Virus record (IMG/VR): IMGVR_UViG_3300009428_000109
Location: 1-20,320 of that record
DNA: 20,320 bases
From: a virus
Strand: one strand, 5' to 3'
A program made the translations under genes and the position numbers. The notes below the pieces were generated by a model, which was given only the letters and a program-made list of their open reading frames with translations, was not told the DNA's origin and did no database searches. Positions 2,576 to 15,125 of this stretch are shown piece by piece. How positions within the stretch are numbered: position 1 is the stretch's first letter; each line of letters starts with the position of its first letter.

Positions 2576-2825
2576 GTTATTTTATTTAAGTTATACTGCG
2601 TCTATAAGAACAATATACTAAATTTCTAAATTCTATAAAAATTTTTGAGTAATAACATGCCCCCCACCTGATTAAAAAAAACTTATGTCCCCCATCCCGG
2701 TCCTGGTAAAATTATGTATATGGCATAGGTGAGAGGTTATATAAAACTTCTCCCCACCTGTCTCTTGTGGTTGGGCTACCCCCCGTAATTATCCACACTA
2801 TATTTTTAATTTAATACTTTTACAA
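2576..2825. promoter_or_regulatory. Divergent intergenic control region with imperfect hairpin
   Basis: These 250 bases separate the leftward operon from the first rightward gene and should hold promoters for both. A hairpin can form on the + strand: AGGTGAGAGGTT (2727-2738) pairs with AACTTCT (2745-2751) and CACCT (2755-2759) around a CCC bulge, with a six-base loop. C-rich patches at 2660-2667, 2693-2700, 2752-2755 and 2779-2784 stand out from the AT-rich background. A TATATTTT box (2799-2806) precedes the rightward gene but has no well-spaced TTG partner. I see no confident -7 box for the leftward operon. Confidence 0.4.
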
Positions 2826-3155
2826 ATGGTTTACTTCAGAAAATTGAACATCAATGAGTCTACTGGCTCAGCAACAATCATTGTGAGCTCTGCTCCAATG
2901 TCACAGAAACAAACTACTCTTGCTGGTTTGTCTGTGGGAACAAGAACTCAAGGGAATCTATCCTTTGGTGTTCTGTCACTAATAGACCCTGAAACTAATC
3001 AGGTAATGCGTAGTGACCACCCTACAATCAAAGCGTTGGCTAGTAAGCTGAACGTTGGTGATGAACTTAAGAACTTTAAACTCTCTGAGTCTAAGGTTGT
3101 GAACTTACAAACCGGTGAAGAGAATGAGAATCTTTTCTGGGTTGAACAGGTCTAA
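2826..3155 (+). CDS. Hypothetical 109-aa protein, paralogue of the gene at 3414
   Basis: The product (MVYFRKLNINESTGSATIIV...) is about two-thirds identical to the 112-aa protein encoded at 3414-3752, with two identical 11-residue blocks (FGVLSLIDPET and QVMRSDHPTIK). The pattern of short hydrophobic strands with Gly/Asn turns suggests a compact beta-rich fold; there are no Cys residues, membrane segments or catalytic motifs. It is a single-gene unit: a divergent promoter region lies upstream and hairpins follow. Base composition is unusual: 2881-2940 has 27 G/C of 60, clearly higher than most genes here, so this copy may be recently acquired or under different codon selection. A single-strand-binding, anti-host or other abundant early protein is possible, but function is unknown. 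Confidence 0.75.
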   Translation: MVYFRKLNINESTGSATIIVSSAPMSQKQTTLAGLSVGTRTQGNLSFGVLSLIDPETNQVMRSDHPTIKALASKLNVGDELKNFKLSESKVVNLQTGEENENLFWVEQV

Positions 3156-3160
3156 CCTGT

Positions 3161-3201
3161 AAGGAGGAGGGAAGCTTAACTGCTCCCTTCCTTTTCTTTG
3201 T
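3161..3201 (+). terminator. Purine/pyrimidine hairpin after the 109-aa gene, containing motif copy 1
   Basis: AAGGA (3161-3165) and AGGGA (3168-3172) plus GC (3174-3175) pair with GC (3182-3183), TCCCT (3184-3188) and TCCTT (3189-3193), with a GG and an A bulge and a six-base loop; TTCTTTG follows. The right arm contains AACTGCTCCCTTCCT (3178-3192), the motif repeated elsewhere in this window. It may be a terminator or processing site for the 109-aa gene. Confidence 0.45.
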
Positions 3202-3310
3202 CTACCGCTCATGTGTAGCTCTCTACTTGGTCAGGAATGAATCAGGTACATCTACCGTGCAGACACACACAACACCACAGGGCTAACGCTTTGTGTGTGT
3301 TGTTTTTTTT
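3183..3310 (+). ncRNA. Possible small RNA or long 3' UTR ending in an intrinsic terminator
   Basis: This non-coding stretch starts at motif copy 1 and ends in a hairpin plus T8. It is richer in G/C (28 of 60 in 3181-3240) than the surrounding DNA. It can form small stems, for example TACTTG (3224-3229) with CAGGTA (3243-3248), and carries TCTACCG twice (3201-3207 and 3251-3257). A 34-codon frame from 3237 is not convincing. No clear TAnnTTTG box precedes it, so it may instead be the 3' UTR of the upstream gene. Confidence 0.25.
3263..3310 (+). terminator. Hairpin with T8 tail
   Basis: ACACACACAA (3263-3272) pairs perfectly with TTGTGTGTGT (3291-3300) around an 18-base loop, followed by TG and eight T (3303-3310). 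The stem is not GC-rich, but the perfect pairing and T tract fit an intrinsic terminator for rightward transcription from 2826 or from motif copy 1. Confidence 0.55.
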
Positions 3311-3323
3311 CCCTATGGACTGG

Positions 3324-3343
3324 TCATAGCTTCTCATAGCTTC
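3324..3343 (+). repeat. Perfect tandem 10-bp repeat upstream of a promoter candidate
   Basis: TCATAGCTTC occurs twice back to back, ending six bases before the TAACTTTG box at 3350. A 10-bp period is about one helical turn, so a regulator could contact both units from one face of the DNA. This makes it an operator candidate for the 112-aa gene. Confidence 0.5.
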
Positions 3344-3349
3344 ATAATA

Positions 3350-3371
3350 TAACTTTGACTGCTCCCTTCCT
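3350..3371 (+). promoter_or_regulatory. Promoter candidate: TAACTTTG box plus conserved leader motif (copy 2)
   Basis: TAACTTTG (3350-3357) matches the Bacteroidetes -7 consensus TAnnTTTG and is directly followed by ACTGCTCCCTTCCT, where transcription would begin. The next start codon (3414) is 42 bases after the motif. The same arrangement occurs at 5282 and 7363. No obvious -33 TTTG is seen; the tandem repeat at 3324-3343 lies in that place. Confidence 0.6.
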
Positions 3372-3413
3372 TTCTTATGCAAATATTTATTAATCATTAA
3401 TTATAATTAAATT

Positions 3414-3752
3414 ATGGAAACAAATTCAGTTTATTTTAGAAAGCTTAACATCAATGACAACACAGGTAGTGCAACAATAATTGCATCTGATGTACCATTG
3501 ATACAGAAAGCAACTACATTAGCAGGTGTTAATGTAGCAACAAGAACACAGAACAACATTACATTTGGCGTATTAAGCCTTATAGATCCAGAGACTGGAC
3601 AAGTAATGCGTTCTGATCATCCAACAATCAAGCAATTAGGTGCTAAACTTAATAGAGGTGATGAGATGAAAGGATTTAAACTATCTGCTAACCCTGTGTT
3701 AAACTTAACATCAGGTGAAGAAACAGGTATGTTTTGGATAGAAGCTGTGTAA
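3414..3752 (+). CDS. Hypothetical 112-aa protein, paralogue of the gene at 2826
   Basis: The product (METNSVYFRKLNINDNTGSA...) matches the 109-aa protein along its whole length, with a three-residue N-terminal extension and the same blocks FGVLSLIDPET and QVMRSDHPTIK. Substitutions are spread evenly and mostly conservative, so both copies seem under selection. Base composition is closer to the rest of the window (22 G/C of 60 in 3481-3540) than that of its paralogue. It has its own promoter candidate (3350-3371), a 10-bp tandem repeat upstream and a strong terminator downstream, making it a one-gene transcription unit and probably well expressed. No domain is recognised and the function is unknown. 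Confidence 0.78.
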   Translation: METNSVYFRKLNINDNTGSATIIASDVPLIQKATTLAGVNVATRTQNNITFGVLSLIDPETGQVMRSDHPTIKQLGAKLNRGDEMKGFKLSANPVLNLTSGEETGMFWIEAV

Positions 3753-3775
3753 ACCAGCTTGTAAGAGGAAAACTT

Positions 3776-3816
3776 TGCAGATCTAGTGTGATAACTAGGT
3801 TTGCATTGTTTTTTTT
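3776..3816 (+). terminator. Strong intrinsic terminator after the 112-aa gene
   Basis: TGCAGATCTAGT (3776-3787) pairs with ACTAGGTTTGCA (3794-3805) over 12 positions, including two G-U pairs, with a six-base loop GTGATA. TTG and a run of eight T (3809-3816) follow. This should end transcription from 3350. Confidence 0.7.
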
Positions 3817-4037
3817 ATTTAAATGTGTGTATCATTATATAAACTAGGTCTCATACCCACATTATACCACCTTTTACCACTATCATAACTCTTATAGCAC
3901 ATTAATATATTAATATAGCTAACACAAGGGATAGGTGTGATACTATAACTGCTCCCTACCTCTCCTATGTAGTATGTCTCTCTATCTATAGGATAATAGA
4001 CATAGTACCCGGAATATCATTAATCACTAATAGTAGA
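3817..4037. other. Non-coding stretch with promoter-like motif, no gene seen
   Basis: No convincing reading frame occurs here. It holds an AT-rich self-complementary patch (ATTAATATATTAATAT, about 3901-3916), a loose inverted pair TTATAG/CTATAA (about 3892-3897 and 3943-3948), and motif copy 3 at 3947-3961. The last probably drives the RNA element at 4038 and the lipoprotein genes. Confidence 0.45.
3947..3961 (+). promoter_or_regulatory. Conserved leader motif, copy 3
   Basis: AACTGCTCCCTACCT differs by one base from the commonest form. It is preceded by TACTATA rather than a good TAnnTTTG box and lies 218 bases before the first lipoprotein start, leaving room for a structured leader at 4038-4139. 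Confidence 0.4.
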
Positions 4038-4139
4038 ATTAAGTGTAACAAGACAAATTAAAGGCTAAGACGTTAGTCATCCTACTGTCACTAGATGACA
4101 GCTTGTAGATGCTCTGTCAGCAGGGATGTTGCACTTAAT
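4038..4139 (+). ncRNA. Candidate structured RNA or 5' leader element (multi-branch fold)
   Basis: ATTAAGTGTAAC (4038-4049) pairs with GTTGCACTTAAT (4128-4139) over 12 positions with one G-U pair, closing a 78-base domain. Inside are GGCTAA/TTAGTC with a GACG loop (4063-4078), CTGTCA/TGACAG with a five-base loop (4085-4101) and TGCT/AGCA with loop CTGTC (4110-4122). A second CTGTCA at 4114-4119 could compete for TGACAG (4096-4101), so two exclusive folds are possible. The element lies between motif copy 3 and the lipoprotein genes. It is not a tRNA: no T-loop or anticodon arm is seen. It could be a regulatory leader or a separate small RNA. Confidence 0.45.
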
Positions 4140-4179
4140 AACTATATCACCAATTACTAACCAATAATAATAAATCGTT

Positions 4180-4344
4180 ATGAAAAAGAAATTACTTTAC
4201 CTTATGGTATTCCTCTTCGTTGGAGGACCAATACTTCAATCTTGTGGATCCTCTAAACGTGGATGTAAGAAGATGAGAAAGTACAGAACTTATGCTTCTT
4301 GTGAACCAACAAAGAAGTTAACTTATCCTAGAACTAAATATTAG
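4180..4344 (+). CDS. Small lipoprotein (54 aa)
   Basis: The protein begins MKKKLLYLMVFLFVGGPILQ and continues SCGSSK: a basic start, a hydrophobic core and a lipobox L-Q-S-C with Cys22 as the predicted lipidated residue. The mature part is only about 33 residues, basic (KRG, KKMRKYR, TKK) with two more Cys (29 and 41) that could form a disulphide. By family knowledge signal peptidase II would process it. Residues after Cys22 (GSSK) lack the acidic surface-export signal known in Bacteroidetes, so it may stay on the periplasmic side. The leader AATAATAATAAATCGTT before the ATG is typical of genes here. A role in superinfection exclusion or lysis control (spanin-like) is inference. Confidence 0.65.
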   Translation: MKKKLLYLMVFLFVGGPILQSCGSSKRGCKKMRKYRTYASCEPTKKLTYPRTKY

Positions 4345-4348
4345 TTTT

Positions 4349-4762
4349 ATGATTAGATATATAACAATATTCTTTCTTGCAATATCATTAATGAGTTGTG
4401 AGAAGGAGCCTTTATCAGAATGTATAATAGAGGTACAAGAATCTAACCTAGTAACTATATTCACACAAGAGTATAGTACTACGTATAGCACATCAGGTAA
4501 TATATACTATGAGTATTACTCATGGGGTAGTGACCTTATGGCATTTTATAATGATCAGTGGTTAGCAACCAACCCATCAGACTATAGTAGTCAAGCATGG
4601 TATGATTGGGCTATCCAAAATACTCAACCAACTTATTTAATAATATCTTCTGATGATTATAGTCTATCAGCAGATTGGAATGGGTATAATCAAGACTATT
4701 ACTACTTAAATACTAATATCTCAGATCTTATCACTAATGGTGATACGGTCATAATACTTTAA
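4349..4762 (+). CDS. Lipoprotein rich in Tyr, Trp, Ser and Asp (137 aa)
   Basis: The N-terminus MIRYITIFFLAISLMSC is a lipoprotein signal with lipobox L-M-S-C (Cys17). The following residues EKEP are acidic/charged and resemble the surface-export signal of Bacteroidetes lipoproteins, so the mature protein may face outward. The mature domain is acidic and unusually rich in Tyr, Trp, Ser and Asn (for example YYEYYSWGS and NGYNQDYYYLN), as in many small extracellular beta-rich domains; no known family is recognised. It starts four bases after the small lipoprotein stop, so the pair is likely co-translated. Surface display fits a phage protein that blocks a receptor against superinfection, but that is inference. 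Confidence 0.72.
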   Translation: MIRYITIFFLAISLMSCEKEPLSECIIEVQESNLVTIFTQEYSTTYSTSGNIYYEYYSWGSDLMAFYNDQWLATNPSDYSSQAWYDWAIQNTQPTYLIISSDDYSLSADWNGYNQDYYYLNTNISDLITNGDTVIIL

Positions 4763-4768
4763 TAAATC

Positions 4769-5122
4769 ATGAAAAACTTATTCAAATCATTAATCAAAAT
4801 TATATATGTAATCGTTCTACCTGTGCTATTTGTCATAGGAACATATCATTTCGTAACTAACTATACAGTTAATACAACTCTATTGTTACTTATAACTTTA
4901 CTTGGCGTAGCTGTTGTAGCTAACTCAGTAATGTACTTAGTCTTTATGTCTAGAGTAAATATGCTTCCTACCTGCAAAGTAGAGTTTATACCTATATTTG
5001 GATTTGCATTTGGTGTAGATCCGGATCAGCATAGGAAAGTTAGTTGGCTATTGCTACTACCTTTTGTATCATTTGAATTTAGTGTGAAAAAGCAGATAAA
5101 CTTAAAGAAAAGTAAATTTTAG
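4769..5122 (+). CDS. Small multi-pass membrane protein (117 aa)
   Basis: Two clear membrane segments are seen, at about residues 8-27 (KIIYVIVLPVLFVIG...) and 36-60 (TTLLLLITLLGVAVV...), and a hydrophobic stretch at 74-103 may re-enter or cross the membrane. The tail is basic (KKQINLKKSKF). There is no enzymatic motif. It starts six bases after the lipoprotein gene and completes a three-gene envelope unit (two lipoproteins plus a membrane protein) followed by a hairpin region. Such a trio would suit host-envelope modification, superinfection exclusion or lysis; holin function is possible from size and topology but not shown. Confidence 0.65.
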   Translation: MKNLFKSLIKIIYVIVLPVLFVIGTYHFVTNYTVNTTLLLLITLLGVAVVANSVMYLVFMSRVNMLPTCKVEFIPIFGFAFGVDPDQHRKVSWLLLLPFVSFEFSVKKQINLKKSKF

Positions 5123-5216
5123 TGAACAGTGGTTCATACAAACAGTACCAGTATATATTTATATAATATATATAGTACTATAGTTAGTACAATTTAATGA
5201 GTGGTGGTGGCTAAAT

Positions 5217-5272
5217 GGATAGTAACAATACCTTTTTAATATAGCATATTGTTTAAGGTTGCGTTACTATCC
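5217..5272 (+). repeat. Long inverted repeat just before a promoter candidate
   Basis: GGATAGTAAC (5217-5226) and GTTACTATCC (5263-5272) are perfect complements; ACCTT (5230-5234) pairs with AAGGT (5255-5259), and AATATAGCATATT lies inside. There is no T tract after the stem. It may terminate or process the envelope operon RNA, or act as an operator for the promoter candidate ten bases downstream. Confidence 0.5.
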
Positions 5273-5281
5273 TTATTTAGG

Positions 5282-5303
5282 TAACCTAAACTGCTCCCTT
5301 CCT
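5282..5303 (+). promoter_or_regulatory. Promoter candidate: TAACCTAA box plus conserved leader motif (copy 4)
   Basis: TAACCTAA (5282-5289) runs directly into ACTGCTCCCTTCCT, aligned as in copies 2 and 5. A TTG at 5259-5261 lies 20 bases upstream, a spacing close to the usual -33/-7 distance in Bacteroidetes. The start codon at 5344 is 40 bases after the motif. Confidence 0.55.
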
Positions 5304-5343
5304 AACCTATACAGTTATCAATTTAATAATCAATAAAGAAAAA

Positions 5344-5862
5344 ATGGCAAATCAATTTAAAATCAATGAAAGTATTGTAGAGAACATACTACATAATGTT
5401 TTATTACCACAGAGCCCACATAATAGTGAGCATATATTTAATATCTTAATGAGAGAGTTACCTGATCATGCAAAAGAAATTATATTGCATCTTAGTTTGG
5501 CTAAAGAAAATTATAGTCCTGTAGTTATTGGTGACTATATAAAGCTTGTGCCTCCAAGTTATCATGTAGGTAGCAACTATGAATGGGATATACTTGAAGA
5601 CATGGGTCTAAGCCCAGGAGATGGTATGGTCTATGGTAAAGTAGTTGGAGACACATCATGGGGTAATGATAAGTTCAACCCGTTTTACAGTAACCTTAAA
5701 GTAGAGTTACTATATCATGATGAAGAAAAGAAGTTAAAGATGTTTGATTTCCAGGCAGAGCCAATGGAACTAACTAAAGTTAGTGCAGCAGACATAAAAT
5801 ATTTTGATATATTAAACCCAGACGTAGTAATAGATCCAATAACTGAAGTAAATGAACAATAA
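5344..5862 (+). CDS. Hypothetical 172-aa protein
   Basis: The product starts MANQFKINESIVENIL. Residues 1-55 look helical; 60-135 alternate strands and turns with conserved-looking aromatic/Gly patches (GDYIKLVPPSYHVG and SPGDGMVYGKVVGDTSWG); the C-terminus is acidic. The central part resembles a small beta-barrel, such as a translation- or nucleic-acid-binding fold, but I cannot name a family. It is the first gene after promoter copy 4 and so heads the 5344-6311 unit. The leader ATCAATAAAGAAAAA is typical of starts here. Function unknown. Confidence 0.68.
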   Translation: MANQFKINESIVENILHNVLLPQSPHNSEHIFNILMRELPDHAKEIILHLSLAKENYSPVVIGDYIKLVPPSYHVGSNYEWDILEDMGLSPGDGMVYGKVVGDTSWGNDKFNPFYSNLKVELLYHDEEKKLKMFDFQAEPMELTKVSAADIKYFDILNPDVVIDPITEVNEQ

Positions 5863-5863
5863 A

Positions 5864-6076
5864 ATGGCTAAAATATCAATGGAACTGCTCCAAGCAGAAC
5901 AACAGTCTTGGAAATTATTAGATAATGCATTAAAAGATGCTAAGGGAAAGAATATACCATTCGGGAGGTATATGAATGACAAGTATTTAATGAATGATGA
6001 TGATTTGGCTGGAGAAATTAGTGAATCATTTGCTATGTTGATCCTATTAAAGAATCATGTTAAAGAAATTATCTGA
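5864..6076 (+). CDS. Hypothetical 70-aa helical protein
   Basis: I place the start at 5864 (MAKISMELLQAEQQS), because it lies one base after the upstream stop (TAA, A, ATG), a recurrent junction here; an ATG at 5852 would add four residues and overlap the previous gene. The protein appears all-helical, with LLQAEQQSWKLLDNALKDAK (8-27) followed by a short loop and the hydrophobic C-terminal helix AMLILLKNHVKEII. There are no Cys, membrane segments or motifs. It overlaps the downstream winged-helix gene by 20 bases, which suggests coupling and perhaps a shared role in regulation or replication start. Confidence 0.58.
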   Translation: MAKISMELLQAEQQSWKLLDNALKDAKGKNIPFGRYMNDKYLMNDDDLAGEISESFAMLILLKNHVKEII

Positions 6077-6311
6077 TAGATTTGGTATAATTAAATACAA
6101 AGTCTTATCAGATCCTAATTTATCTATACAAGCAAAAGGGTTGTATAGTCTCATAGCTTGCTATGCAGATAAGAACCGTGAAGCATATCCGTCTGCTTCA
6201 ACACTTGCTGACTCACTAAATGTATCACAGAGATATGTTTTTAAGCTCTTAAAAGAACTGAGACAGCATAATTACATAAAAAGAATAAAGGGCAAATTAG
6301 TTATTACCTAA
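6057..6311 (+). CDS. Winged helix-turn-helix protein (HTH_36-like)
   Basis: The 84-aa protein matches the N-terminal winged-helix domain of phage replication initiators and related regulators: an entry helix (LSIQAKGLYSLIACYADK, about 23-40), then the signature AYPSASTLADSLNVSQRYVF (43-62; recognition helix about 56-66) and a wing with KRIKGKLVIT. In full-length family members a C-terminal domain follows; here the protein stops after the wing, so it is a single-domain DNA binder. It overlaps the previous gene by 20 bases. It could regulate early transcription or mark the replication origin; which one cannot be decided from sequence. Confidence 0.75.
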   Translation: MLKKLSDRFGIIKYKVLSDPNLSIQAKGLYSLIACYADKNREAYPSASTLADSLNVSQRYVFKLLKELRQHNYIKRIKGKLVIT

Positions 6312-6410
6312 GTGATAGCTATATAAGTGCAGTTTATTTTTGAATTTAACTAATAATTTCTTATAATTAGTGAGCCAAAGGCAGTTATATTTTTATCTTT
6401 GTTGATAGAT

Positions 6411-6677
6411 ATGATAGTACAACTACCCAATGGCCGCATAATTGAGTGCTCAGTAGAGCAATACTTATCTCTTACAGATCAAGAGGTACAAGATCTTAAT
6501 GGCTTAAGTTCAGCATACACAAAAGAAGTGGTTAATCCCTTTTACAATGCCTTTTCAGGTAAGACAGTTATTATTGACTATGAACCAGAGTACATAGAAG
6601 AAAATGAGCCTGCCTTAGATGAAATAGATGCATTTGAAAAGCTAGATGATCCGTATTTCCATTCAGATGACGTGTAG
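6411..6677 (+). CDS. Hypothetical acidic 88-aa protein
   Basis: I choose ATG 6411 (MIVQLPNGRIIECSVEQYLS) over an upstream TTG at 6399, since other genes use ATG. The N-terminal 30 residues form a recognisable small motif (QLPNGRIIE.SVEQYLSLTDQEVQDL), followed by an acidic tail (EENEPALDEIDAFEKLDDPY...). Similar short proteins starting with this motif appear to be common in Bacteroidetes phages, but I know no function for them. The preceding 87-99 base gap contains TATTTTTG (6335-6342) and TATCTTTG (6394-6401), both fitting TAnnTTTG, which in such AT-rich DNA may be chance. Confidence 0.62.
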   Translation: MIVQLPNGRIIECSVEQYLSLTDQEVQDLNGLSSAYTKEVVNPFYNAFSGKTVIIDYEPEYIEENEPALDEIDAFEKLDDPYFHSDDV

Positions 6678-6717
6678 TCATCAAACAATCAATTATTAAT
6701 TTTTTAAAACTAAAAAA

Positions 6718-7293
6718 ATGCAAAGCAAAGTCAATGTATGTGCTGATGACATGGGTAATGTTATCATTCAATCAAAAAACAATTCAGAGTATGGTTATGT
6801 AAGACTACAACAAGACAGAGTTACCTTTGGTAACAATGGCTGGGTTAAAAAGTCTAATGTATCAACGTTATTACTTGGTAAAGTAGAAGACTTACAGTCA
6901 TTAAACTTTAAGTCAGGAGATGTTATAGCAGGTAAAATTGTTATTAAAGAACAATTAGAGCCATTCAATAGCAATGATCCAGACAGAGATTACAAGTATG
7001 CAGGTGATACAGGTATCATATGCTGTGTAGATGGTCAACCTATTTATAGGAAAGCAATGTTTACTGCTGATATAACAGCACAAGACGTGTTATTAGCTCA
7101 TACTAATGGTCAAGACATTAAAGATGCTAATGGATCAACAACAGTTGGTAAGATAAAGAATGCTACAACACTTGAAGCATTTGGTATAAGTGAAGAAGTA
7201 ACAGAAGAAGAAGAAACTGTTACTGAGACAGAAGAAGTTACTGATAAAGTAGAAGAACTTGTAGAAGAAGAGGCTGAAACCTTTGAACTATAA
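6718..7293 (+). CDS. 191-aa protein with long acidic tail, possible ssDNA-binding protein
   Basis: Residues 1-155 form a folded domain (MQSKVNVCADDMGNVIIQ..., with repeated short strands). Residues about 156-191 are a strongly acidic tail of Glu/Thr/Val ending EEEAETFEL. An acidic C-terminal tip with an aromatic and a final hydrophobic residue is a hallmark of bacterial and phage SSB proteins, where it recruits partners. The DRDYKYAGDTGIICCVDGQP stretch (about 83-102) looks like a conserved turn. A second SSB-like protein with tip DFDL is encoded at 15151, so this one may have another role. The gene is followed by an inverted repeat (7309-7366) and a promoter candidate and so ends its unit. 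Confidence 0.6.
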   Translation: MQSKVNVCADDMGNVIIQSKNNSEYGYVRLQQDRVTFGNNGWVKKSNVSTLLLGKVEDLQSLNFKSGDVIAGKIVIKEQLEPFNSNDPDRDYKYAGDTGIICCVDGQPIYRKAMFTADITAQDVLLAHTNGQDIKDANGSTTVGKIKNATTLEAFGISEEVTEEEETVTETEEVTDKVEELVEEEAETFEL

Positions 7294-7308
7294 GAATAGT
7301 TAATTGTA

Positions 7309-7366
7309 GTTAGTTAGGTTAAAAGGGGTGTATGACTGGATCTTATCGTTGTACACCCTAATTAAC
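7309..7366 (+). repeat. Inverted repeat between operons
   Basis: GGGTGTA (7326-7332) pairs with TACACCC (7352-7358) around a 19-base loop; GTTAGTTAGG (7309-7318) can extend the stem with CCTAATTAAC (about 7357-7366) after an asymmetric bulge. No T tract follows. The right arm overlaps the TAACTTTA box at 7363, so the fold or a protein bound to it could affect the next promoter. Confidence 0.45.
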
Positions 7367-7384
7367 TTTAACTACTCCCTTCCT
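7363..7384 (+). promoter_or_regulatory. Promoter candidate: TAACTTTA box plus conserved leader motif (copy 5)
   Basis: TAACTTTA (7363-7370) precedes ACTACTCCCTTCCT, differing from the copy at 3350 by only two bases over the whole 22-base block. The start codon at 7429 is 44 bases after the motif. Confidence 0.58.
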
Positions 7385-7428
7385 CATACATGAGGTTAAC
7401 ACTTTTACTAATCAATTACTAAACAATT

Positions 7429-8218: not shown

Positions 8219-8292
8219 GGTCCTATAGCTCAACTGGATAGAGCAACAGCTTTCTAAGTTGTAGGTTCAAGGTTCAAGTCCTTGTAGGATCA
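8219..8292 (+). tRNA. tRNA-Arg (anticodon UCU)
   Basis: A complete cloverleaf is present: acceptor GGTCCTA (8219-8225) with TAGGATC (8285-8291, one G-U pair), D stem GCTC/GAGC (8228-8231, 8241-8244), anticodon stem ACAGC/GTTGT (8246-8250, 8258-8262), loop TTTCTAA with anticodon TCT at 8253-8255, and T stem CAAGG/CCTTG with loop TTCAAGT. The discriminator is A8292; CCA is not encoded (CA follows). It reads AGA, the Arg codon that dominates in this AT-rich genome, so it likely supports phage translation. Confidence 0.9.
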
Positions 8293-8308
8293 CATTAAAA
8301 AAGCAATT

Positions 8309-12939: not shown

Positions 12940-13889
12940 AAAATAAACCGTCATGGATTGGCCAATATGCTGCTTTCAATGAAGCACTAAAATATATGTA
13001 TGCTAGGTCTACAGGAGAGGAGAAATCCATATACACTCCTTGGCCTAAATTTAATGATGCCGCTACTGATGGTCTAGAGTGGAATACATTGACTGTAATT
13101 GGTGGTAGACCTGGTTCAGGTAAAACATTAATTAAAGATCAAATCATAAGAGAATCATTTGCATTAAATCCAAATGATAAGTTTAGAGTATTAGAATTTC
13201 AGTTTGAGATGGTAGGTAGAACCTCAGCTATTAGAGAGTTTAGTTCTATCACTGGTAAAACATACAAAGAACTGTGTAGTGCAGGATCAGTACTAGCTAC
13301 TGATACACTAAACACATGTCACTTATATGCTAAAGAAAGAGTTAAACATCCCGTTGATATAATTAGTACACCTATGACAGTAAATCAGATGCGTGAACAA
13401 ATTGATCAGTATATGAATCAACATAAAGGTGTAAATACAATTATAACTTTAGACCATACAATGCTAGTAAAAAGAGCACCCTATCAAAATAATACATTAG
13501 ATATGTTATTTGAATTAGGTGAGTTTTTTACACAATGTAAACGTGATTATCCTTGTTTGTTTATAGCTTTATCACAACTTAACCGGAACATAGATAATCC
13601 AGACAGGGCAATAGATGGTAAGTATGGTAATTATATACTTGAGTCAGATATATTTGGCTCAGATGCAATGCTACAACATGCAGATATGTTGATAGGTATT
13701 AATAGACCAGCTAAACAAAAGATTAGGTTCTATGGGCCTGATAGATATATTATAGAAAATGATAGAACCTTGGTGTTGCATTTTCTAAAAGCCAGAAATG
13801 GTGATGCACGGATGTCATTCTTTAAAGCAAAGTTTGAGCAAATGCAGATAGAAGAAATGATAACACCAGGACAACAAGAACGCAGATGA
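12936..13889 (+). CDS. DnaB-type replicative DNA helicase (RecA-like domain)
   Basis: The 317-aa product carries the DnaB RecA-fold motifs: Walker A GGRPGSGKT (56-64), FQFEM after the second strand (89-92), Walker B-like ITLDH (170-174), motif H3 ALSQLNR (211-217) and KARNGDA (285-291) near the arginine-finger strand. By family knowledge it forms a ring that unwinds DNA at the phage fork. It is shorter than bacterial DnaB (about 450 aa) because the N-terminal primase-binding domain is missing; only about 45 residues precede the Walker strand. It joins its neighbours by ATGA at both ends, so it is co-translated with the upstream helper candidate and the unknown protein after it. Confidence 0.9.
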   Translation: MKNKPSWIGQYAAFNEALKYMYARSTGEEKSIYTPWPKFNDAATDGLEWNTLTVIGGRPGSGKTLIKDQIIRESFALNPNDKFRVLEFQFEMVGRTSAIREFSSITGKTYKELCSAGSVLATDTLNTCHLYAKERVKHPVDIISTPMTVNQMREQIDQYMNQHKGVNTIITLDHTMLVKRAPYQNNTLDMLFELGEFFTQCKRDYPCLFIALSQLNRNIDNPDRAIDGKYGNYILESDIFGSDAMLQHADMLIGINRPAKQKIRFYGPDRYIIENDRTLVLHFLKARNGDARMSFFKAKFEQMQIEEMITPGQQERR

Positions 13890-14440
13890 TAAATACTAAA
13901 AACTTAAATAATAAATCAAAGATGGGACTAACACCGCAACAAAGAAAACAGAAGGTTGCATCTCTCAGAGAAGAGCATGATGACTACTTTCAAACAGAGG
14001 GTATAGTTAATGCACTATACATACCTAAGATGGCTTATAGGCCAACTGGTAAGGATGAGCTACATGTTAGTTTCTTCCCAAGTGAATTTGAAAAAGGAGA
14101 GGATATATATACAGAGTTTGTATCTATAGATTATGATACAGAAGATCCAAAAAGAACATTATATTATCACAAGAATAACCCTCATTGGAAAGAGGAGTAT
14201 GAAATGATAACAAGCAACTCAGGCTTCCAAAGACATATTATACCAGTCAGTGAGTTAAAAGTTGTAAATGATGTTACAAGTAGGGGTAAAGCTATTATAG
14301 ATTTTGCAAATCCTGATTTGCCTAATCCAGATGAAACTACTCAAACTGCTCCCTCCCTCACCTCTGCAGATCTGATAAAAGTATTATCAGAAATAAATGC
14401 AACATTAAATAAATTAATAACAGTAATCCAAAGTAAATAA
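13886..14440 (+). CDS. Hypothetical 184-aa protein in the replication operon
   Basis: The start at 13886 forms ATGA with the DnaB stop. The N-terminus is basic and Gln-rich (GLTPQQRKQKVASLREEHDD, 14-33); the middle has strands with conserved-looking aromatic residues (YFQTEGIVNALYIPKMAYRP and HVSFFPSEFEKGEDIYTEFV), and the C-terminus after a Pro/Thr linker (PNPDETTQTAPSLTSA) is a Leu/Ile helix that could oligomerise (IKVLSEINATLNKLITVI). It may be a fork accessory. The linker region is encoded by a base-perfect-looking copy of the leader motif (14344-14358). No enzymatic motif is found. Confidence 0.66.
   Translation: MINTKNLNNKSKMGLTPQQRKQKVASLREEHDDYFQTEGIVNALYIPKMAYRPTGKDELHVSFFPSEFEKGEDIYTEFVSIDYDTEDPKRTLYYHKNNPHWKEEYEMITSNSGFQRHIIPVSELKVVNDVTSRGKAIIDFANPDLPNPDETTQTAPSLTSADLIKVLSEINATLNKLITVIQSK
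14344..14358 (+). promoter_or_regulatory. Leader motif copy inside a gene (copy 6)
   Basis: AACTGCTCCCTCCCT lies within the 184-aa gene and differs by one base from the intergenic form; it is strongly pyrimidine-rich for this AT-rich gene. It lies 83 bases before the Sak4-like start, about twice the usual distance, and lacks a well-placed TAnnTTTG box. An internal start point for the recombination genes is possible; coincidence with a Pro/Ser-rich linker is the alternative. Confidence 0.3.
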
Positions 14441-14441
14441 T

Positions 14442-15125
14442 ATGGCACAAAGCGTATTGGTAATTGCAGATTCAGGTACAGGAAAGTCTACCTCAATCAG
14501 GACATTAGATCCTAAAGAGACTTTCATTATAAATATTGCTAACAAACCGTTACCATTTAAAGGTTGGAAAGGCAAGTATAATCAAATTAGCAAAGATAAC
14601 CCAAAAGGTAATCTTACATCTGCTTCATCAAGTGCAGGTATAATTAAAGCTATTAAGCATGTTGATGAAAAGATGAGCCATATCAAGACATTAGTTGTTG
14701 ATGACTGGCAGTATATGAGTTCTTTTGAATATTTTGATAGAGCAAATGAGAAAGGATATGATAAGTTTACACAGATTGCAGCTAACTTAGCCATGGTGGC
14801 AAAGCTACCTAAAGATCTGAGAGATGACTTAACAGTAATCTTTTTGACTCACTCAGAAGATTCAACTGATATAAATGGTAATAGAAAAATTAAAGCAAAG
14901 ACTATTGGTAAAATGATTGACAATACTCTTACTTTAGAAGGCCTATTCTCCATTGTATTATTTGGGAAAGTAAATAAAAATGATGATGGTGAACTTGAAT
15001 ATGGTTTTGAAACTCAAAACTCAGGAGAGAACACATGTAAATCACCAATGGGTATGTTTGAGGATAAGTTTATTCCTAATGACCTAAAGTTTGTAAAGGA
15101 TTGTATTGAGGAATATAATCAATAA
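14442..15125 (+). CDS. Sak4-like RecA-fold ATPase (single-strand annealing/recombination)
   Basis: The 227-aa product has a Walker A ADSGTGKST (9-17) very near the N-terminus, Walker B TLVVDD (83-88) and a sensor-like strand VIFLTHSED (132-140). Size, motif spacing and location fit phage Sak4/AAA_24 ATPases, minimal RecA-like proteins that promote annealing or exchange together with an SSB. An SSB-like gene follows 25 bases downstream, the typical partner arrangement. The start is one base after the upstream stop. Other P-loop ATPases of similar length remain possible, but the neighbour makes Sak4 the best call. Confidence 0.8.
   Translation: MAQSVLVIADSGTGKSTSIRTLDPKETFIINIANKPLPFKGWKGKYNQISKDNPKGNLTSASSSAGIIKAIKHVDEKMSHIKTLVVDDWQYMSSFEYFDRANEKGYDKFTQIAANLAMVAKLPKDLRDDLTVIFLTHSEDSTDINGNRKIKAKTIGKMIDNTLTLEGLFSIVLFGKVNKNDDGELEYGFETQNSGENTCKSPMGMFEDKFIPNDLKFVKDCIEEYNQ

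Follow-up and report, generated by a model that had tools for sequence, protein, structure and literature searches.

A recurrent element with the consensus WCTGCTCCCnnnCTn7G was found in the 20,320-base stretch of viral DNA analysed in the present study (IMG/VR virus record IMGVR_UViG_3300009428_000109, hereafter the window), and is probably a phage-specific promoter of approximately 22 bp that serves the early/replication block, directs initiation at around its terminal G (G21), and is read by a giant RNA polymerase (RNAP). We observed the recurrence of this motif, its strand and location bias, its conservation in the family, its concerted variation, predicted RNA structure beginning at around +21, and a polymerase homologue in relatives. 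In the proposed mechanism, the motif would drive transcription units located where the rightward early/replication block begins, the word ACTGCTCCC would lie upstream of, not within, the transcript, and the new RNA would often open directly with a stem-loop. Hairpins and terminators ahead of several copies would end the preceding unit, after which the promoter would restart transcription of the gene or small RNA that follows. The reader would be a giant double-barrel RNA polymerase homologous to gp66 of phage phi14:2, carried in the virion and injected.

Copies of the motif in the window and in related phages

The word AACTGCTCCCTTCCT is present in seven copies on the plus strand of the window and none on the minus strand. 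The earlier note on this DNA, made from its letters alone, listed six copies with at most one change, all of which were verified (exact at 3178 and 5289, one change at 3357, 3947, 7370, and 14344); a seventh copy at 2745, with three changes, had been overlooked. Dinucleotide-preserving shuffles of the window gave a mean of 0.35 matches and a maximum of 3, with none of 100 shuffles reaching seven. An unbiased scan for repeated 14-mers also placed this word first among repeats confined to one strand of the window, with 7 plus-strand copies against approximately 0.01 expected from base composition. The end of the motif precedes an ATG by 42 (ATG 3414), 40 (ATG 5344), and 44 bases (ATG 7429), in agreement with the 40-44 bases previously given for the copies at 3357, 5289, and 7370.

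The copies had been described as intergenic, which does not hold for that at 14344; it is located inside the open reading frame (ORF) 13886-14440, ahead of the gene at 14442 for an AAA_24 ATPase. The first base of this coding copy occupies codon position 1 in the window and in some relatives, compared with position 3 in L222, L187, L167, and L159, and the residues that it encodes differ between lineages; therefore, the DNA word rather than the peptide appears to be the conserved entity. A purely translational role, which had been considered for the motif, is unlikely because some copies lead structured RNA-like stretches and one is inside a gene in a frame that varies with lineage.

Homologous contigs are plentiful in the viral collection, and dozens of related contigs of marine origin also contain the motif. 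A weight matrix, seeded with exact words and trained on 225 loci, many of which overlap or are closely related, gave 546 matches in these loci, compared with 2 when 60 loci were reversed in sequence, and 113 sites were retained once near-duplicates had been removed. In oriented loci, 472 matches lay with the gene strand and 27 against it. Related contigs do not provide independent sites; non-redundancy was defined by sequence identity, not by a tree, and the statistical controls account for composition and tail conservation, not kinship.

With the A of ACTGC numbered 0, the motif takes the form W0-C-T-G-C-T-C-C-C-n-W-n-C-T13-n7-G21; the previously described word is real, and the conserved unit is longer and extends to the G at +21. 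The third block is T-T-C-C-T in the clade of the window and A-G-C-T-A or A-A-C-T-A, often followed by TTTG, in divergent lineages, the lineage types being ACTGCTCCCTTCCT and TCTGCTCCCCAACTA. Variants change in concert within genomes: the leader copy, which is located at the divergent point, agreed with the other copies at 0.92 at +11 (shuffled, 0.41) and at 0.90 at +0 (shuffled, 0.53). Individual copies have been gained or lost among lineages, as observed ahead of the ORF 7429 homologue, where the clade of the window has a hairpin followed by the motif (copy 6) and sister lineages have only the hairpin. Tandem double motifs spaced by approximately 16-22 bases were noted in some relatives (L217 4634-4674, L304 4923-4964, L222 16239-16276, and L202 687-730).

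A 101-kb relative (G012) had six matches, all on the same strand and confined to the initial 12 kb of its rightward block, with none in the rest of this genome, including the terminase and capsid genes. Exact matches clustered likewise in divergent near-complete genomes, where they shared the strand of the ATPase gene in the early block, and in near-complete relatives the motif stands ahead of early transcription units and is absent from the late block. Enrichment upstream of one gene class, a test proposed in the earlier note, was thus found in relatives, and this location upholds the suggested link between the motif and the promoters of the early/replication block. When strictly non-redundant copies outside ORFs were considered (n = 63), an ORF began no more than 80 bases from +21 in 43 of them, most often at 20-40 bases.

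Proposed start site and polymerase

In the folding of 98 sites, mean pairing was low through +19 (0.34 at +19) and highest at +21 (0.72). In comparisons with shuffled downstream sequences, +16 to +19 were less paired and +22 to +25 were more paired, while pairing at +21, which is a G in 88 of the 98 sites, was only approximately 2 standard deviations above the control because a G there pairs readily. In 23 of the 32 leader copies, bases 21-24 had a complement further downstream (expected, 10.3), a count reached by none of 300 tail swaps, and this number dropped to 2 when the 4-mer was moved to start at +22. These stems differ in sequence (GTGG, at 2767-2770, with CCAC in the window, GAGG/CCTC in L250, GCAGT/ACTGC in L269, GTAG/CTAC in L270, GCAC/GTGC in L266, and GACAG/CTGTC in L322), and are preserved through compensatory changes. 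The folded part of the predicted small RNAs begins at about +20 to +23 and includes the compensatory stems TACTAG/CTAGTA and TACTGG/CCAGTA; structure begins at +20 in the RNA downstream of copy 2, the motif itself being unpaired.

Given this onset of structure at approximately +21 and the compensatory changes that maintain its stems, the most likely start of transcription is at or within 1-2 bases of G21, and a start at this position would explain the pairing and the conservation of G with the fewest assumptions. The earlier note took the motif for the conserved start of the mRNA; in folded leaders and small RNAs, structure begins at +21 or an adjacent base, which places the start at the 3' end of the motif instead, and the motif is most likely an upstream promoter that spans -21 to +1 rather than a conserved initial transcribed sequence. 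ORFs 3414, 5344, and 7429 would then have 5' leaders of 33-37 bases, and leaders in the family would mostly be 20-80 bases. A uniform hairpin within the motif was also considered and rejected as a common feature, its mean z of about -1.1 being similar to that of the downstream sequence alone. Bases +21 to +25 often complement part of the motif (GCAG to CTGC, GGAA to TTCC, and GAGG to CCTC); four-base pairing of this type was found at 23 sites against 11 expected, in varying registers.

Judged by their sequences, the motif-bearing phages are uncultured marine crAss-like phages. G012 has a leftward block with the terminase and major head protein and a rightward block with homologues of the helicase and primase of the window, plus a DNA polymerase, and divergent early and late blocks, as in Crassvirales, were found in near-complete relatives. 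The terminase is approximately 25% identical to those of crAss-like phages, and also to that of Flavobacterium phage FpV4, and the primase approximately 33%; no close isolated relatives were found in the phage collection. The RNA polymerase of crAss-like phages is related to eukaryotic RNA-silencing polymerases. G012 carries an ORF of 3341 amino acids with GADFDID, the giant-ORF region was found in 11 of 12 further genomes, and SGADFDID in 9 of the 10 that were fetched, with open frames of 1,683 to 5,040 amino acids. A direct comparison of the giant-ORF polymerase with PDB chains gave no meaningful match, and a profile-profile comparison was therefore used, in which the giant ORF matched phi14:2 gp66 (hhalign probability 98.4%, E 9e-15); it also aligned with crAss RNAP subunits by tblastn. 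This homologue was seen in near-complete relatives, the window itself spanning only 20 kb.

In phi14:2, the crAss-type virion RNAP transcribes early genes (PMC10136315, PMC8375218). The misfit of the motif to a host promoter, its variation among lineages, its concert within genomes, and its limitation to the early side together point to a phage polymerase, and the giant virion RNA polymerase of the phage itself would be the best-supported reader; the phage-specific polymerase suggested in the earlier note is plausible. The start site, the polymerase, its packaging in the virion, and the timing are all parts of this scheme that we infer.

Alternative readings and known systems

Several points weigh against a promoter read by this polymerase. 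Phage phi14:2 resembles the present phages in its giant polymerase, a distant homologue that contains DFDID, and in the early/replication block as the target, but lacks the promoter motif. Approximately 2 to 7 promoters for a block of approximately 27 kb imply that other promoters or read-through must exist. The divergent leader of L266 pairs from about +15, and the fold and pairing counts use related sequences and, thus, overstate independent events. Furthermore, structure from +21 could reflect an RNA-binding factor that needs a single-stranded motif, in which case the RNA would start further 5'. No clear equivalent repeat was found in the early region of phi14:2; the word TTTTAGCCTTACAT, repeated on one strand of this region (L337/L338, at 98283, 98386, 99987, and 7676), may be an early signal of phi14:2 itself, although it is a weak candidate.

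The strongest rival, which we nevertheless consider unlikely, is that the host polymerase works together with a phage activator. The motif would then be an operator or activator box at which a phage DNA-binding protein recruits or blocks this polymerase, in the manner of MotA at T4 middle promoters, and the winged helix-turn-helix (HTH) protein encoded within the block at 6057-6311 is a candidate binder. The length of the motif and its concerted variation within genomes fit any phage trans factor, and the tandem copies are also in line with such a box; however, if transcription starts at +21, no host -7 element is present at the right distance, and the known crAss pattern is a virion polymerase for early transcription.

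The earlier note described the motif as fused to a TAAC-type box (TAnnTTTG). On a reading of this kind, the host RNAP would start from the box, with the C-rich word as the first stretch of the mRNA acting in initiation, stability, or translation. TAACTTTG and TAACTTTA directly precede copies 3 and 6, respectively, and T is frequent at -2 and -4 in the clade of the window. A resemblance to the Bacteroidetes housekeeping promoter (TTG / TAnnTTTG) is apparent in TAACTTTG and in the TAnnnTTTG-like 3' half in divergent relatives, but the spacing is 3 instead of 2, or the match is weak, and it is not conserved. At the -8 position of 37 non-redundant intergenic sites, the box was perfect in one and matched at 5 or more of 6 positions in six; it was absent upstream of the motif in divergent lineages, one group of which has in its place a hairpin that ends at -1. 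No other conserved promoter was seen upstream of the motif copies, and a sigma-70 scan showed no excess over shuffles. The box does not appear to be part of the motif, and this reading, against which the structure from about +21 and the copies leading structured non-coding stretches also argue, is improbable.

Marginally less probable again is an element that acts at the RNA level, as a single-stranded 5' tag for a phage protein or antitermination (put/nut or ops-like) or as a processing site before G21. The motif is mostly unpaired with a stem directly after it, and the varying spacing of tandem copies is compatible with such a role, but several copies are directly 3' of a terminator or hairpin that should have ended any transcript from upstream, one is within a gene ahead of the next, and no separate promoter is conserved upstream. 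A chance repeat or shared ancestry without function may be practically dismissed: some copies adjoin duplicated genes (2826 and 3414), but the core is conserved between diverged flanks in about a hundred sites, and the strand bias, presence or absence at single loci, and frame changes in the coding copy do not fit.

The preferred promoter reading has a parallel in Thermus phage P23-45, in which conserved motifs, one for each of two phage polymerases, are located upstream of mapped starts of pre-early/early genes; these polymerases are of the single-chain, two-barrel kind, like crAss gp66 and QDE-1, and the motif in relatives tracks the presence of the polymerase (PMC10770324). Both systems share a conserved phage-specific motif upstream of early transcription units. 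They differ in motif sequence, with one AT-rich and one GC-rich motif in P23-45, and the starts in P23-45 were mapped experimentally, while both the start and the reader are proposals here, the former on the basis of structure beginning at approximately +21.

Each promoter of the coliphage N4 virion RNAP contains a hairpin. The present phages would share with N4 an injected polymerase and early genes as its targets, and in one group of relatives the motif is directly adjoined by a hairpin; however, most sites lack an adjacent hairpin, an N4-type hairpin (5-7 bp stem, small loop) is not found at each site, and the polymerases are unrelated. The abutting hairpins (L263, L266, L269, L270, L276, and L277) are varied, have a TTYC loop and no T tract, and end right at the motif, as in GGCATT-TTCC-AATGCC, CGTGCAT-TTCC-ATGCACG, and GCCTGT-TTTC-ACAGGC (e.g., L266 3752-3769 and 4359-4376).

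The motif bears on how a crAss-type polymerase finds its start sites. No promoter for this polymerase was found in the searchable open-access literature; the phi14:2 polymerase study (Drobysheva 2021), which was outside that search, may describe one. We tentatively propose, with less confidence than in the promoter itself, that the motif is the cognate promoter of the crAss-type giant virion RNAP, namely, a C-rich 22-bp element ending at +1 that coevolves with this polymerase across lineages and drives short, separately terminated early units, including small structured RNAs with a 5' stem-loop; this would perhaps be the first family-wide one found. The presence of the motif in dozens of contigs from several lineages, with variants that change together in each genome, provides ready templates for recognition tests. 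The motif could also mark genes as early in metagenomic phages and locate small RNAs made first in infection.

Features of the window and neighbouring genes

The region 102-2575 of the window is leftward and the remainder is mostly rightward. The promoter copies and adjacent RNA features are listed in Table 1.

Table 1. Putative promoter copies and predicted RNA features
Feature	Position	Strand	Sequence	Predicted start and remarks
Promoter copy 1 (leader copy, divergent point)	2746..2767	+	ACTTCTCCCCACCTGTCTCTTG	G2767; ahead of ORF 2826-3155; family-wide conservation
Promoter copy 2	3179..3200	+	ACTGCTCCCTTCCTTTTCTTTG	G3200; ahead of predicted structured small RNA
Promoter copy 3	3358..3379	+	ACTGCTCCCTTCCTTTCTTATG	G3379, 35 bases before ATG 3414
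Promoter copy 4	3948..3969	+	ACTGCTCCCTACCTCTCCTATG	G3969; hairpin from +21, then long leader to ATG 4180
Promoter copy 5	5290..5311	+	ACTGCTCCCTTCCTAACCTATA	A5311, 33 bases before ATG 5344
Promoter copy 6	7371..7392	+	ACTACTCCCTTCCTCATACATG	G7392, 37 bases before ATG 7429; directly 3' of hairpin
Promoter copy 7	14345..14366	+	ACTGCTCCCTCCCTCACCTCTG	G14366, 76 bases before ATG 14442; within ORF 13886-14440
Predicted small non-coding RNA	3200..3312	+		Intrinsic terminator at end: hairpin about 3266-3304, then T8
Predicted small RNAs at the 2826/3414 place	Window 3200-3312; L299 4801-4905; L206 4715-4810; L201 4698-4790; L205 3794-3920			
Intrinsic terminator	3776..3814	+		3' of ORF 3414-3752, upstream of copy 4
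Hairpin	7330..7360	+	GGGTGTA..TACACCC	Between ORF 6718-7293 and copy 6; intergenic hairpin at this place also in relatives without the motif

ORFs 2826-3155 and 3414-3752 encode adjacent paralogous early proteins of 109 and 112 amino acids, neither of which matched Pfam or PHROGs; among the small early proteins, only the winged HTH protein had a protein family match, and the ORF 7429 protein had no relatives among named isolated phages. Differing predicted structured small RNAs are present between the two paralogous genes in the clade, and one type has a conserved core, TCCTGGGGRAGCAAGGCC, with a compensatory closing stem. No ORF of at least 60 amino acids is directly served by copy 2. An Rfam search of the window and relatives at gathering thresholds returned only tRNAs and no match for the RNA at 3200..3312.

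A conserved hairpin with the downstream word TCTATAGGATAA..ACCCGnAATATC precedes an early gene (window about 3969-4020, L200 4969-5020, and L266 4640-4700), and is present in L266 without the promoter motif; this element is possibly a regulatory RNA. The window also carries a tRNA (Arg, tct) at 8219-8293, and a run of three tRNAs was found at the corresponding position in some relatives (e.g., L206 9791-10030).

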